A stretch of 64,000 nucleotides of DNA, from NCBI GenBank assembly GCA_937925685.1, contig CALAMI010000005.1, positions 1-64,000 of the forward strand. Reading direction: 5' to 3'. Position numbers and translations under genes: made by a program. This document shows positions 1,141 to 5,067 of the stretch, piece by piece. Numbering within the stretch: the stretch's first letter is position 1; every line of letters begins with the position of its first letter. The notes beneath the pieces were generated by a model. The model searched no databases. It was not told the origin of the DNA and was given only the letters and a program-made list of their open reading frames with translations. The DNA comes from Candidatus Binatia bacterium (GTDB lineage: Bacteria; Desulfobacterota; Binatia; HRBIN30).

Positions 1141-1825
1141 CGTGACCGCAACCTCACCGCCGACCCTTACCCCAACTGTGGCGCCGCCAGTTGTGGCTCC
1201 TCCTGCAGGATTCGTTTGGGCTGGTACCAATGGCAGCCCGAACTGTAACGGCTCAAAGTTGGCCTTTACGGTGACCGGGGGGGCGCCTCCGTTCACGATT
1301 GTGCCCTCGGGTGGCAACGTTTGCCTCAGTACGAGCACGGTTTTCACTTCCGGTGGAAGCTTCACCGTGACCGGAGGAAATCAGTTGGGTTCGTTCGTAC
1401 TCACGGTGACCGATAGTGTCGGACAAACCGTCAATGCGGCTCTCAATGTGGGCGCTCCGGATGCCCAACAAATCGCGATTAGCTTACCAGCGCCTACAGC
1501 TAACAATAACGGTGATGGTACGTTCACGACCGTGGTGAGTGCGCTGGTCACCGACACGTTTGGAAATCCGATTCCTGATGGCGTCGCAGTGGAATTTAGT
1601 TTGCCCACGCCGATCGCGGGTGTGTCCGTCACCAGCCCCGGATTCACCAACGCCGAAGCGCCTTGCAACACCGGCAGTCTCACGATCTTCCCGCAGCCGG
1701 GTGATGCGCTGGCGTGTGTCAAGTACTTGAGCACCTTGGTTGGCAGTAACGTCCAAGTGCGTGCCCGAGTGCGTAACGCCTCGAACAACGTGATTAGCGT
1801 CACCCAAACGATCACTCTGCCGTAA
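1..1825 (+). CDS. Giant exported Ig-like repeat protein with Thr-Pro linkers (3' end, start outside window)
   Basis: The frame is open from the left edge (first full codon at position 2) to the TAA at 1823-1825, so at least 600 residues of a longer protein are visible. It holds one partial and two full Ig-like modules, each opening with NNGDGT and carrying ALVTDANGVAAMNGIPV, PPNCQLSF and QPGDALSCVKY. Thr-Pro runs of about 25-45 residues separate the modules. A different module (SPNCNGSKLAFTVTGGAPPF, around codons 400-470) precedes a last diverged copy that ends the protein. The modules resemble bacterial Ig-like group 1 (invasin-type) folds, and the linkers resemble those of secreted or surface adhesins. 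Each module has two cysteines that could pair. No anchor motif is seen at the C-terminus. Function is unknown; a surface or adhesive role is inference. Confidence 0.85.
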   Translation, partial: ALQGQTVRVRARVSAPSQPLGYVEDVRDIILLDLRPTATPTASPSFTPTVTLTPTQSFTPTVTPTPTPAAAHILIEQNILGVTNNGDGTFSMVITALVTDARGVAAMNGIPVHFSLVTPVAGVSVTSPALIGDPPNCQLSFQVNAQPGDALSCVKYAAALQGQTVRVRAWVSIPTAPGYIEAFRDIVLLDLRPTATPTATRTFTPTLTPTSTPTQTPTLTPTPTITPTPTPEARFIQIEQNILGVTNNGDGTYTIVITALVTDANGVAAMNGIPVHFSLVTPVAGVSVTSPALIGDPPNCQLSFQVNAQPGDALSCVKYVSTMQGQTVQIRARVSAPSQPGGFIEDIRNITLLDLRPTATPTATRTFTPTLTPTSTPTPTVTATSPPTLTPTVAPPVVAPPAGFVWAGTNGSPNCNGSKLAFTVTGGAPPFTIVPSGGNVCLSTSTVFTSGGSFTVTGGNQLGSFVLTVTDSVGQTVNAALNVGAPDAQQIAISLPAPTANNNGDGTFTTVVSALVTDTFGNPIPDGVAVEFSLPTPIAGVSVTSPGFTNAEAPCNTGSLTIFPQPGDALACVKYLSTLVGSNVQVRARVRNASNNVISVTQTITLP

Positions 1826-1860
1826 TCTGAAGCCATCGTGGCGAGTTGGCGTGCGGTCTA

Positions 1861-1888
1861 GCGGGGATGCCCCTTAAGGGCTCCCCGC
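1861..1888. terminator. GC-rich hairpin between convergent genes
   Basis: GCGGGGA (1861-1867) pairs with TCCCCGC (1882-1888). An inner GCCC/GGGC extends the stem with one bulged T. It lies between the convergent repeat-protein gene and ddl and could terminate either transcript. There is no T-tract, so intrinsic termination is only plausible. Confidence 0.45.
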
Positions 1889-1934
1889 AGGACCGCACCG
1901 CAGGAGCTGCCAGAGCCTGCGAAAAGGGTGAGGC

Positions 1935-3038
1935 TCAGGGGCGGTGGCGAATCAAGCCGCGTCTAGCCTCGTGCCGCTCCACCGCAAGCTCGACCAGGCG
2001 ACGGACCAGGTGAGGCAGTGGAATGCCGCTCGCTTCCCACAGCCGCGGGTACATGCTGATGGGGGTGAAGCCAGGGATGGTATTTACCTCGTTGACGAAT
2101 ACGGTGTCCGGCTCGACGAGGAAGAAGTCTACCCGTGCCAGTCCGGCGCATTCCAGCAGGTGAAAGACCTCGCACGCAAGTTGGCGTACACGTGCAGCCA
2201 GGGGCCCCGGAACTGGAGCCGGCACGAGCAGTTCAGCTCCATTGGGGTCGAGGTATTTGGCTTCGTAAGAGTAGAACTCGTGCCGGGGGCGAATCTCCCC
2301 GAGGACGGAGGCCTCAGGCTCGTCATTTCCGAGAACTGCGCACTCGATTTCCCGCACGTCGTAACCTTTCTCCACGACCACCTTCATGTCGAACGAGAAT
2401 GCGCGTTCCATGGCTTGTATTAACTCATCCTCATTTCTGGCCTTGGCGACGCCTACCGAGGACCCTGAATTGGCCGGTTTCACGAAGAGTGGGTAGCCAG
2501 CGTCGTTGGCCCACGCCAGTATGTTCGCGCGGGAGTGGAACCAGTCCGATCGCCGCGCCACCGTGTGCGCTACAATCGGAACGTTGGCGGCTCGGAGCAG
2601 CCGCTTTTGGATGTCTTTGTCCATGCCGATTGCCGAGCCGAGCACCCCGGAGCCTACGTAAGGTATGTCCAGCAATTCGAGTAAACCTTGTACGGATCCG
2701 TCCTCACCAAAGGGCCCGTGAAGAACCGGAAAGATGACGTCGACCCTGAGCTCGGCCGTACCGGAACAAACGTCGGTTCGCCGCAAGGCAGGTGTCTCCC
2801 CTGGTGTGATCGTTAGAGGTACTCCCTGTTGGCCAACCATGCCGGAAGCTGCCACGCCAGCAAACGATGCCTCGTCCAAAAGGAGCCACTTGTTCGAGCG
2901 ATCGATCCCGATGGGTACCGCGCCGAATCCAGCATCACGCAAGGCGCGCACGACGGTTGCACCCGAACGCACGGAAACTTCGTGTTCGGCAGACTTTCCG
3001 CCCAACAAGACAGCCACAGTTTGCACTTTGCTATTCAC
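1935..3038 (-). CDS. ddl: D-alanine--D-alanine ligase
   Basis: This ATP-grasp ligase joins two D-alanines for the peptidoglycan precursor UDP-MurNAc-pentapeptide, in the cytoplasm. The N-terminus reads VAVLLGGKSAEHEVSVRSG, the usual Ddl opening. HGPFGEDGSVQGLLELLDIPYVG, the ATP-grasp stretch PLFVKPANSGSSVGV and the C-terminal ARVDFFL...NEVNTIPGFT (metal and D-Ala binding) all follow in order. The frame is open upstream to 3302, but the family N-terminus begins at the GTG at 3036-3038, which has GGAGG about 12 bases upstream. That gives 367 residues, the usual size of DdlA/VanA-type ligases. No other division or cell-wall genes adjoin it. Cell-wall gene murE is 15 kb away, so these genes are dispersed here. 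Confidence 0.93.
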   Translation of the reverse strand: MNSKVQTVAVLLGGKSAEHEVSVRSGATVVRALRDAGFGAVPIGIDRSNKWLLLDEASFAGVAASGMVGQQGVPLTITPGETPALRRTDVCSGTAELRVDVIFPVLHGPFGEDGSVQGLLELLDIPYVGSGVLGSAIGMDKDIQKRLLRAANVPIVAHTVARRSDWFHSRANILAWANDAGYPLFVKPANSGSSVGVAKARNEDELIQAMERAFSFDMKVVVEKGYDVREIECAVLGNDEPEASVLGEIRPRHEFYSYEAKYLDPNGAELLVPAPVPGPLAARVRQLACEVFHLLECAGLARVDFFLVEPDTVFVNEVNTIPGFTPISMYPRLWEASGIPLPHLVRRLVELAVERHEARRGLIRHRP

Positions 3039-3604
3039 AGAACTTCCGGCCTCCGCCGTGGCATACCATAGCGGCCGCGGTTGCGCACGAACGTGGTCGA
3101 GAAAGGCGAAAACGCTACACCGGTAGCCCGCGCGCACGGTCGGGCTCGGGCAAAGCCTATCGCCCAGGGTTCGATATCCCGCCGGGGACAGGCTTTCGTT
3201 GTCGTGAGGAGGCGAACAGGTTGCGAGCATTCCCCCGTTGGGCCACATGCCCGCACTGGCCCACACTGGAGGGTGTCTCACGATCCACCGAGGAGGCGCC
3301 ACGTTTCGCCTGTGAAGTAGGCTCCCACTTTACCAGGCCTCGCTCGGACAATGGCCAAGCACGATCGTGGAAACGGTAGCCCTTGCGCGAGATGCTACAA
3401 CGTCCCATACTGTGGAGCACGACAAGTTAAAGTTCAGGAGTTCGGAAGGGACAGCACAAACCATGTTCCTGTGCAGACCACCAAGCGATTTGACAGGGCA
3501 TATAAACTTCGTCGTGTCCCGTTATTTTCCCTCCAAACTTCGCCGCGGCTGTTGGCGCAGTGGGAGTGGATGTTGGACGATGACGCAAGTGGACCCACAC
3601 TCTG
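3039..3604. other. Long intergenic region upstream of the RNA element
   Basis: No convincing gene on either strand. It contains the divergent start regions of ddl and of the RNA element that follows. A TTGACA occurs at 3490-3495, but no good -10 box lies 16-18 bases downstream. TATAAA at 3501-3506 is too close to pair with it. The ligand-sensing part of the downstream attenuator, if there is one, should lie in about 3510-3604. Confidence 0.4.
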
Positions 3605-3708
3605 CCTTCGGTGGCTGCTCCTGGGGGGGTAGAACCTAGACGAATCGACAAAGCCTTTGCTGAGGAGAAGAGAGCCACCGAAGGCAAACTTCGGTGGCTC
3701 TTTTTTTT
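3605..3708 (+). promoter_or_regulatory. Attenuator-like RNA element with mutually exclusive hairpins
   Basis: CCTTCGGTGGCT at 3605-3616 is perfectly complementary over 12 bases to AGCCACCGAAGG at 3673-3684. The second segment is also the left arm of the terminator at 3671-3701. The terminator's right arm (3689-3700) repeats the sequence of 3605-3616, so both compete for the same partner. A second short pairing (CTCCT 3618-3622 with AGGAG 3663-3667) would extend the upstream fold. This is the geometry of an antiterminator/terminator switch, with the XRE-type gene starting 48 bases after the T-tract. I could not match the upstream segment to a known riboswitch class. It could instead be a stand-alone terminated small RNA. 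Confidence 0.65.
3671..3708 (+). terminator. Strong intrinsic terminator
   Basis: A perfect 13-bp stem (AGAGCCACCGAAG 3671-3683 with 3689-3701) with loop GCAAA is followed directly by eight T residues (3701-3708). This is a textbook Rho-independent terminator. It stands upstream of, not after, a gene, which points to attenuation or to the end of a small RNA. Confidence 0.9.
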
Positions 3709-3755
3709 CCACACGGCCGATTGCGAGTGGGATCGATTGGAAGAGGAGACAAGTC

Positions 3756-4061
3756 ATGACACGGATCAATGTGGATCGGAAAACGTTTGCGGCTCGGTTG
3801 CGAGAGGTCGTTGCCGACGAGCCAAAGGCCTTCGCTTACGAAATCGGTGTGAGCCTTTCGGCTTTATACAACTATCTCAACGGACGCATTCCGAACACGA
3901 CGGTTCTGCTGCGCATCGCTTTGCACACCGGCAGGCCCATGGAGTGGTTTTTAGGTGTCGACCAGGTGAGCGGCACTTTGTACCCGGGCTGGCCGAACTG
4001 GGCAACTGGAGCTGCTCCGTGCGTGGCTCATCGAGCAACCGGGGCCAGAGCACCTGTGTGA
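3756..4061 (+). CDS. Small XRE/Cro-type helix-turn-helix protein
   Basis: Predicted 101-residue DNA-binding protein. Residues about 8-60 form a helix-turn-helix domain: FAARLREVV, AFAYEIGVSLSALYNYLNG, then IPNTTVLLRIALHTGRPMEWFL. This is the usual five-helix layout of the XRE/Cro/CI family. The C-terminal 35 residues are low in recognisable structure. The ATG at 3756 is preceded by AAGAGGAG (3741-3748) at suitable spacing. It is the first gene after the attenuator-like element and is followed at 42 bases by a small membrane protein, so the two may form a unit. Its target is unknown; autoregulation would be typical of the family but is not shown here. Confidence 0.8.
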   Translation: MTRINVDRKTFAARLREVVADEPKAFAYEIGVSLSALYNYLNGRIPNTTVLLRIALHTGRPMEWFLGVDQVSGTLYPGWPNWATGAAPCVAHRATGARAPV

Positions 4062-4103
4062 GTCAAGAATGACGGTTCCGTTTGAGAAAGGAGAGATGTG
4101 GCC

Positions 4104-4310
4104 ATGAACAGTTACGAATTAGCGCGGTTATTGCCTTCTACATGGGAGTACGACGGTGCGGTAGTTCCGGGGGCGCTCCTCATGGCGCTGGTGATCGTTA
4201 TAGCCCCGTTGGTCATATGGACGTTGGGTAGGCTCGGAGCGGTCAAAAAATACCCTTGCGGGGAGCCTCCTTCCCTCCCCGCCTTACCGGTGAAACGGCG
4301 GCTTGCGTGA
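4104..4310 (+). CDS. Small single-pass membrane protein, unknown function
   Basis: 68 residues. A hydrophobic stretch of about 22 residues (GALLMALVIVIAPLVIWTLG) forms one predicted transmembrane helix. A short polar head precedes it and a basic, proline-containing tail ending VKRRLA follows. AAAGGAGAG (4088-4095) sits 8 bases before the ATG at 4104. An in-frame GTG at 4098 is too close to that site. I do not recognise the family. Its position directly behind the XRE gene suggests the two are co-transcribed, perhaps as a regulated membrane effector, which is speculation. Confidence 0.6.
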   Translation: MNSYELARLLPSTWEYDGAVVPGALLMALVIVIAPLVIWTLGRLGAVKKYPCGEPPSLPALPVKRRLA

Positions 4311-4328
4311 GCGGGCCGTCCCCCAGCG

Positions 4329-4361
4329 CTGGGGCAGGCTCCCCCTCCCGGCCTGCCCCAG
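4329..4361. terminator. Bidirectional terminator-like hairpin
   Basis: CTGGGGCAGGC (4329-4339) pairs perfectly with GCCTGCCCCAG (4351-4361) across an 11-base loop. A competing palindrome CCCCAGCGCTGGGG lies at 4321-4334. An outer stem joins GAGCGGGC (4309-4316) to GCCCGCTC (4372-4379). The set lies between convergent genes. There is no T-run. Confidence 0.5.
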
Positions 4362-4362
4362 A

Positions 4363-5067
4363 TCACCGGTAGCCCGCTCGGTAGCGGAAAATACGTCCCC
4401 GCTGGTTGGTGCTTTGAAGTTCGATGAACAGCAGACCTCGCATCACCATGAAGAAGTAGGCGAGCAACGGGCTCAAAAGGAGCGGAATCCAGCCCAGTGC
4501 CCCGGGCAAGGGAAGGCTCCAAAGCAAGAGGAATAAGCCAGCGCCGGCAACGTTTGCCGGCAGCCACTCGATCCAATTGTTGCTGATAAAGCGATAACTC
4601 TGGGCTAACAGGTCGAGGAGATGGGTGCGACCGAGATAAATCAGCTCGGGCACGGCATTGAAGAAGACAAACACTGCAATTTGCACGCAGAGTAAAAGTG
4701 CGGGACCTTGGGGGAGCTGCAAAAGAAAGGGCGTTACAAACGAGAAGAAGAGCCAGGCGAGAAAGGAAAGGCCCACGACATCCCACAAGTACATGCCAAA
4801 ACTGCGGCGAAAATCCTGGAAACTCACTTTGCCACTTTGGATGATGACTTCGACGAGGTGAAGGAAAGAACTCAAGCAAGCCGCTGAAACGAGCGAGATC
4901 AGGATGCCGCCCAAAATGCCGAGCCACATCGCTATCCACGCTGCCGCCGTGCCGAGCCCGCTGTAAACGAACGCCGTCAATAGAACAGGCCAGTTTTTGG
5001 CCGCAAGCACGGCTGCTCGCGAGAAGACTCTCCGATACATCGCCCATGTCGCAAAAAACCAGTCCAC
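4363..5067 (-). CDS. Polytopic membrane protein, unknown function
   Basis: 234 residues with about five or six hydrophobic segments, for example around residues 30-60, 95-115, 120-140 and 175-210. The architecture, with helix-breaking glycines and an aromatic-rich N-terminus (MDWFFATWAMYRRVF), resembles uncharacterised integral membrane proteins of the DUF4013/YciC-like kind. That is an impression, not an identification. The C-terminus is basic (NQRGRIFRYRAGYR), suggesting it faces the cytoplasm. It lies about 50 bases downstream of the EamA transporter gene on the same strand, so the two are probably co-transcribed. Confidence 0.65.
   Translation of the reverse strand: MDWFFATWAMYRRVFSRAAVLAAKNWPVLLTAFVYSGLGTAAAWIAMWLGILGGILISLVSAACLSSFLHLVEVIIQSGKVSFQDFRRSFGMYLWDVVGLSFLAWLFFSFVTPFLLQLPQGPALLLCVQIAVFVFFNAVPELIYLGRTHLLDLLAQSYRFISNNWIEWLPANVAGAGLFLLLWSLPLPGALGWIPLLLSPLLAYFFMVMRGLLFIELQSTNQRGRIFRYRAGYR

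Follow-up and report, generated by a model that had tools for sequence, protein, structure and literature searches.

The general mechanism of leader-peptide attenuation is established from trp leaders, and a dense run of Thr and Ile codons, in thrL, precedes the thr operon of Escherichia coli. Riboswitches, on the other side, typically use mutually exclusive pairing as well. Attenuation governed by upstream open reading frames (uORFs) is treated in PMC12218461 and a survey of terminators is given in PMC2965389. In passages of PMC13236596, the actinobacterial whiB7/wblC uORF is described as an attenuator of a transcription factor gene that is induced by ribosome stalling in the uORF, and a ribosome standing at the uORF stop codon of ilvB1 in Mycobacterium tuberculosis is proposed to mask an antiterminator. 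The locus described below belongs to a Candidatus Binatia bacterium and was analysed within a contig stretch of 64,000 nucleotides, referred to as the window. Its sequence and that of its relatives indicate that a ribosome-controlled transcription attenuator very probably lies upstream of a gene encoding an XRE-type regulator. All features are located on the forward strand unless otherwise mentioned.

The pairing switch is composed of three arms. The antiterminator arm A (3603-3616) lies inside a leader ORF and includes the codons GGT GGC at 3610-3615; arm B (3671-3686) is the left arm of the terminator and is common to the antiterminator; arm C and a T8 run (3689-3708) supply the right side of the terminator. 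The original prediction held that 3673-3684 can pair over 12 bases with 3605-3616, and the letters bear this out, AGCCACCGAAGG being the perfect complement of CCTTCGGTGGCT; the helix in fact extends to 14 bp between 3603-3616 and 3673-3686. The 13-bp hairpin with T8 that had also been claimed is present, its stem joining 3671-3683 to 3689-3701 around a loop at 3684-3688, and its T run occupying 3701-3708 with the T at 3701 closing the stem. The two partner segments of arm B had been described as identical, which is true of the 11 nt that they have in common (CTTCGGTGGCT) and not of the whole segments. Mutually exclusive pairing of arm B with arm A or arm C is nonetheless supported. Minimum-energy folding of both states yielded the terminator for 3500-3712 (z -4.05) and the antiterminator for 3500-3688, the RNA that exists before arm C (z -3.03). 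A crude scan of the window, in which perfect arms of 8-15 nt had to be followed by TTTTT, returned one intrinsic terminator, and since this sole terminator carries a 14-nt complement upstream, the pairing appears to be more than chance. A consensus scan of 3040-4400 did not list the terminator, probably, in our own interpretation, because pairing of the U run with purines further upstream, in a 20-pair stem, is possible as well.

The leader ORF spans 58 codons and a TAG stop (3463-3639) and is likewise 58 codons long in both sister species. It is preceded by the Shine-Dalgarno (SD)-like sequence GGAAGGGA at 3444-3451, and SD-like stretches precede many of the other leaders. Three marks of an attenuator were found together: an intrinsic terminator lies between leader and gene, an antiterminator shares its left arm, and the leader ORF overlaps the antiterminator in the sequence, its translation being predicted.

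A nucleotide search with 3500-3760 matched only 3 of 58 genomes, namely the genome itself, one sister species (E 9.3e-26) and a third through a 29-nt match (E 0.00994), and relatives were therefore sought by means of the XRE protein. An orthologue was found in 29 of the 148 genomes of the class Binatia at E <= 1e-15. In total, 46 loci were fetched; 17 of them were discarded for duplicating others over 270 nt and one, the more distant relative L046, was set aside; the 28 distinct loci that remain form the base of all counts given here. Four further XRE relatives (L028-L031, E 4.7e-8 to 2.4e-4) were excluded as being different XRE proteins. L046 displays two tandem XRE genes without a detectable leader attenuator.

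The attenuator layout is present in the upstream regions of all 28 loci. The covariance check that had been proposed along with the original prediction was run, and arm A (3605-3616) proved to be conserved and to covary with the terminator in homologues. The antiterminator A-B has 89.0% of its cells paired and changes on both sides in 10 of 14 pairs, the corresponding values for the terminator B-C being 95.3% and 8 of 14. None of 500 shuffles came as high in paired percentage or in covariation score, for A-B or for B-C, these shuffle controls leaving the relatedness among loci in place; on the weakest measure, that of further pair types, 49 of 500 shuffles drew level for A-B and 18 for B-C. 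Slid structures reached at most 63.0% paired. The three arms change in concert: where arm A passes from GGT (Gly) to AGC (Ser), arms B and C follow. Arm A reads AAC in L026, with arm B matching it and leaving a wobble to arm C, and a single A-C mismatch between arms A and B occurs in the antiterminators of L024, L069 and L070.

Two models were built from these loci. Model R1 matches all 29 genomes with the XRE orthologue at E 5.2e-9 or better, and it was itself built from these loci. In order to avoid this circularity, model R2 was trained only on the 14 loci of families f1-f4, and it gave full-length matches in all 14 loci of families f9 and f11, 13 of them at E 8.2e-6 or better and L026 at 0.0018. 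In L046, R1 scored only E 0.48. Weak matches to R1 are common, as at least 107 of 143 class genomes contain one or more at E <= 0.01. A further R1 match, to the minus strand of the terminator at 3663-3711 (E 0.003), is read as a consequence of the self-complementarity of the hairpin.

The region upstream of arm A behaves as a coding frame whose sequence drifts. A single frame reads through arm A in 28/28 loci and ends 24-36 nt past the first of two codons for GG, SG, NG or SS. The leader ORF measures 51-66 codons in 27/28 loci and 40 codons in L014, a narrow range that is partly built in by the rule used for choosing starts, in which an ATG at 45-70 codons with the best SD-like sequence was preferred. 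Among 24 related pairs, not independent of one another, 22 of 26 indel runs in the part of the ORF that precedes the arm have lengths divisible by three; this holds for 19 of 68 runs from the stop codon to the gene and for 12 of 54 in the flank ahead of the ORF. In 18 leader pairs, substitutions hit first, second and third codon positions almost equally, so the frame is kept and the peptide hardly at all. Over the leader span, the +1 frame is open in 3/28 loci, the +2 frame in 9/28 and the reverse frames in 46 of 84 locus-frame combinations; openness of a frame is by itself weak evidence.

Particular codons are placed at a defined distance before the arm. Counted backwards from the GG-type codons, a Thr codon occurs at positions -7 to -13 in 28/28 leaders (shuffled mean 15.1) and throughout 11/11 clusters of relatives (shuffled mean 3.0), values that none of 2000 shuffles attained, in a series of 16 tests that covered 8 residues over two spans and in which the Thr span was picked after viewing the sequences. 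Lys (19/28, shuffled 5.6) and Ile (15/28, shuffled 7.7) are enriched before the arm as well, and so is Asp in the nearer of the two spans. Expressed relative to the arm core (3 nt ahead of the GG-type codons), all 28 XRE leaders have at least one Thr codon at a distance of 18-36 nt upstream, with only 1-4 Thr codons near the arm and no run. In the window, the candidate ribosome-holding codons are ACG ATG ACG (Thr-Met-Thr) at 3577-3585, 30 and 24 nt before the arm core. As a separate observation, where Ile is encoded in the last 16 codons ahead of the GG-type codons, ATT is used in 23 of 29 cases; long ORFs, which prefer ATC, use it in 44 of 228. This excess of ATT is a nucleotide-level motif around GATT.

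An SD-like G run (3623-3629) lies past arm A and ahead of the leader stop, in a position that in other loci doubles as the 5' side of an inner antiterminator helix. SD-like motifs, from a list drawn up after viewing the sequences, occur in this interval in 27 of 28 leaders (all but L010) and in 11 of 1112 control windows of equal length taken upstream in the same leaders. With the E. coli anti-SD, duplex energies of -8 kcal/mol or lower were obtained in 25/28 leaders and in 40/1112 control windows. The motif ends 3-14 nt before the leader stop, and no ATG is present from the arm to 25 nt past the stop in 27/28 loci, L010 having one, which argues against a plain start site. The A-to-B segment folds better than its own shuffles in 26/28 loci (mean z -1.49); the two loci where the inner helix lacks such support are the window (z 0.68) and L022 (0.07).

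The gene behind the switch encodes a 101-aa helix-turn-helix regulator (3756-4061), in agreement with the XRE assignment made originally: it matches Pfam PF01381 (HTH_3) above the cutoff at E 8.4e-6, and no NCBIfam match was obtained. A small membrane protein had been announced after it, and a 68-aa hydrophobic protein is indeed encoded at 4104-4310, with similar ORFs in both sister species and no Pfam or NCBIfam match. By eye, a small ORF follows in 10 of the 14 f1-f4 loci, and none like it was seen in the 14 f9 and f11 loci, so the small membrane protein accompanies the regulator in only part of the loci. On the other side, a D-alanine--D-alanine ligase gene (1935-3041, reverse strand) is divergent from the leader at a distance of about 420 nt, and a 599-aa ORF at 26-1825 contains repeated Thr/Pro-rich linkers and repeated domains.

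Upstream of the leader, an inverted repeat (3360-3374) with consensus TTCCACGNNCGTGGAAA, here CACGATCGTGGAAAC, is followed by a putative promoter, TTGCGC-17 nt-CATACT (3383-3411), from which a start near 3418 is predicted. Such an inverted repeat and, 7-8 nt further on, a CTTGC-like sequence precede the leader ATG in 25/28 loci, a count made without a chance control, with 9-14 of the 15 consensus positions kept per locus; the pair of elements was not found in L026, L057 and L063. TTGC or TTGA is aligned in 25/28 loci, with A/T-rich columns about 21-29 positions downstream. A transcript starting downstream of 3616 had been named as an outcome contrary to the prediction; the promoter-like element at 3360-3411, found in 25/28 loci, speaks against it, and no promoter was called by the consensus scan of 3040-4400 at its threshold. 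The inverted repeat may be an operator, and autoregulation by the XRE protein through it is possible. A wider regulon was looked for and received no support beyond the locus's own promoter: the genome holds no second site with 0-1 mismatch, and allowing up to 3 mismatches gave 14 sites on the forward and 13 on the reverse strand, as against 13 and 4 in the controls. The two sites with 2 mismatches overlap or adjoin open frames.

The proposed operation of the attenuator can be briefly summarized as follows. RNA polymerase would start upstream of 3463 and transcribe the 58-codon leader ORF, near the end of which the GGT GGC codons and their neighbours constitute arm A. A ribosome that has passed through arm A and waits at the stop would occupy the arm at the time arm B emerges, leaving arm B to pair with arm C, and transcription would terminate near 3708. 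If the ribosome is held further upstream, most likely at the Thr/Lys/Ile-rich codons, or if translation is slow, arms A and B would pair first, no terminator would form and the XRE protein would be made. Comparison among the loci shows the pairing, its covariation, the kept frame, the positions of the codons and the SD-like run, and the direction of control, the signal and the holding of the ribosome are what we infer from this arrangement. The SD-like run would hold the terminating ribosome next to arm A. The leader stop lies 16-28 nt past the arm core in XRE leaders, compared with 7-11 nt in Trp leaders, the arm ends being defined slightly differently in the two sets; at such a distance, a ribosome at the stop would cover arm A poorly unless held, and the SD-like run may offset this longer distance.

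A switch of this kind could be driven by something other than a ribosome. The original prediction had left the choice between riboswitch and attenuator; the attenuator logic is supported, and the RNA sensor it also allowed for is not. An aptamer or a protein-bound leader acting on the same pairing is hardly credible here, in spite of the exclusive pairing it would share with riboswitches: the sequence upstream of arm A keeps its reading frame and drifts, without a conserved non-coding aptamer, and the ribosome is likely the sensor. The original remark that the putative sensor region could not be matched to a known class agrees with the lack of any Rfam match at gathering score in the window, and neither a riboswitch nor a T-box appeared in 3030-3800 at E up to 10. 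Eight sub-threshold matches, none of them a riboswitch, were returned for that interval (best by E ctRNA_p42d, 20.6 bits with 50 needed, E 0.11) and were taken as chance hairpin matches. It is also very improbable that the leader ORF stands alone as a small-protein gene ending in a terminator of its own, with the upstream arm copy a mere coincidence. The ORF does have its own SD-like and promoter-like elements and is followed by a terminator; yet arm A covaries with arm B across six families, and in L005 and L020-L023 arm B pairs with arm A past the terminator stem and into the loop.

Other explanations concern what the ribosome would respond to. The nascent peptide might stall the ribosome near its own C-terminus under a specific condition, and a weak C-terminal pattern, K/R-I-x-P followed by GG, is visible by eye in a number of leaders. 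Such an arrest peptide is nevertheless improbable, as the GG/SG/NG/SS codons follow the RNA pairing rather than the peptide and the rest of the leader drifts. A more serious candidate, to which we would give somewhat less than an even chance, is that the same attenuator senses a general slowdown of translation, as caused for instance by ribosome-targeting drugs, without regard to a particular amino acid, in the manner of the whiB7 uORF. The substitutions at all three codon positions in the 18 leader pairs and the lack of a run of one codon are consistent with it, and so is a target that is a transcription factor, as in the whiB7 account (PMC13236596). The position-specific enrichment of Thr, Lys and Ile before the arm would be unneeded in that case, which weakens the version without codon bias. 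The signal would thus be either a shortage of Thr-family aminoacyl-tRNA or a general slowdown, the evidence favouring neither. A fuller proposal is offered tentatively and is rather doubtful as a whole: a starvation or translation-stress switch across Binatia, in which the leader peptide would signal to one XRE regulator that Thr-family aminoacyl-tRNA is short (or that ribosomes are slowed) while the SD-like run holds the terminating ribosome by arm A.

The ribosome-controlled attenuator proposed here would constitute an attenuator family outside Rfam that places a conserved transcription factor under the control of translation. It predicts that stress or starvation is what the XRE protein regulates the response to and offers a handle on its signal, and it assigns SD-like runs ahead of leader stop codons a role that can be tested. 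The family seems to be undescribed, though working like known attenuators. Our literature search found no report of leader-peptide attenuation in Binatia, and nothing matching in combination with XRE regulators or in Deltaproteobacteria, as judged from the listings. The SD-like run before the stop was not seen in the Trp leaders measured here or in the titles and abstract beginnings of the related papers listed, 10 of 29.

An internal control within the class is provided by the trpE leaders of Binatia. Twenty of the regions weakly matched by R1 were fetched; those that looked attenuator-like by eye were Trp leaders and one Asn/Asp leader, the remainder having in part the appearance of gene-end terminators. 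Leader-peptide attenuators before trpE were recognized in this way in L118, L119, L120, L123, L136 and L137, with similar Trp leaders seen by eye in L133 and L127. The downstream proteins of L118, L120, L136 and L137, the four tested, all score above the cutoff of TIGR00564 (trpE, NCBIfam), and those of L119 and L123 are TrpE-like by eye. In these leaders, of which that of L118, MRCAIRTAWATWRWHAGVSACGAVS*, is an example, the arm of the antiterminator falls within the final codons. In five Trp leaders measured (L118, L123, L133, L136 and L137), the distance from the Trp codons to the arm is 15-32 nt, much as for the Thr codons of the XRE leaders; L119 and L120 were left out of this geometry as the script picked another helix. 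In L121, at about 1660-3131, an Asn/Asp-rich leader, MMLDHDNRNANGNRCRCTRACAPVS*, and a terminator precede an aspartate--tRNA(Asn) ligase gene (NF003483), probably as a further attenuator.

The XRE leaders resemble the trpE leaders of L118, L123, L136 and L137 in having a short ORF, an arm A in its last codons, the alternative of A-B and B-C pairing and candidate regulatory codons before the arm. They differ in length, the trpE leaders having about 23-28 codons and the XRE leaders 51-66 in 27/28 loci, where the choice of start is partly made by rule, and also in the lack of a codon run, in the SD-like run before the stop and in a target that is a regulator instead of a biosynthetic gene. Thr and Ile codons are shared with E. 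coli thrL, the few Thr codons near the arm here standing before an XRE gene. The ilvB1 uORF is alike in the role proposed for a ribosome at the stop, and unlike in its branched-chain regulatory codons and biosynthetic target (PMC13236596). The whiB7/wblC uORF, described in the same article, is close in that a transcription factor gene is placed under uORF-dependent attenuation; its regulator belongs to the WhiB family and the one found here to the XRE type, and the likeness is one of description.
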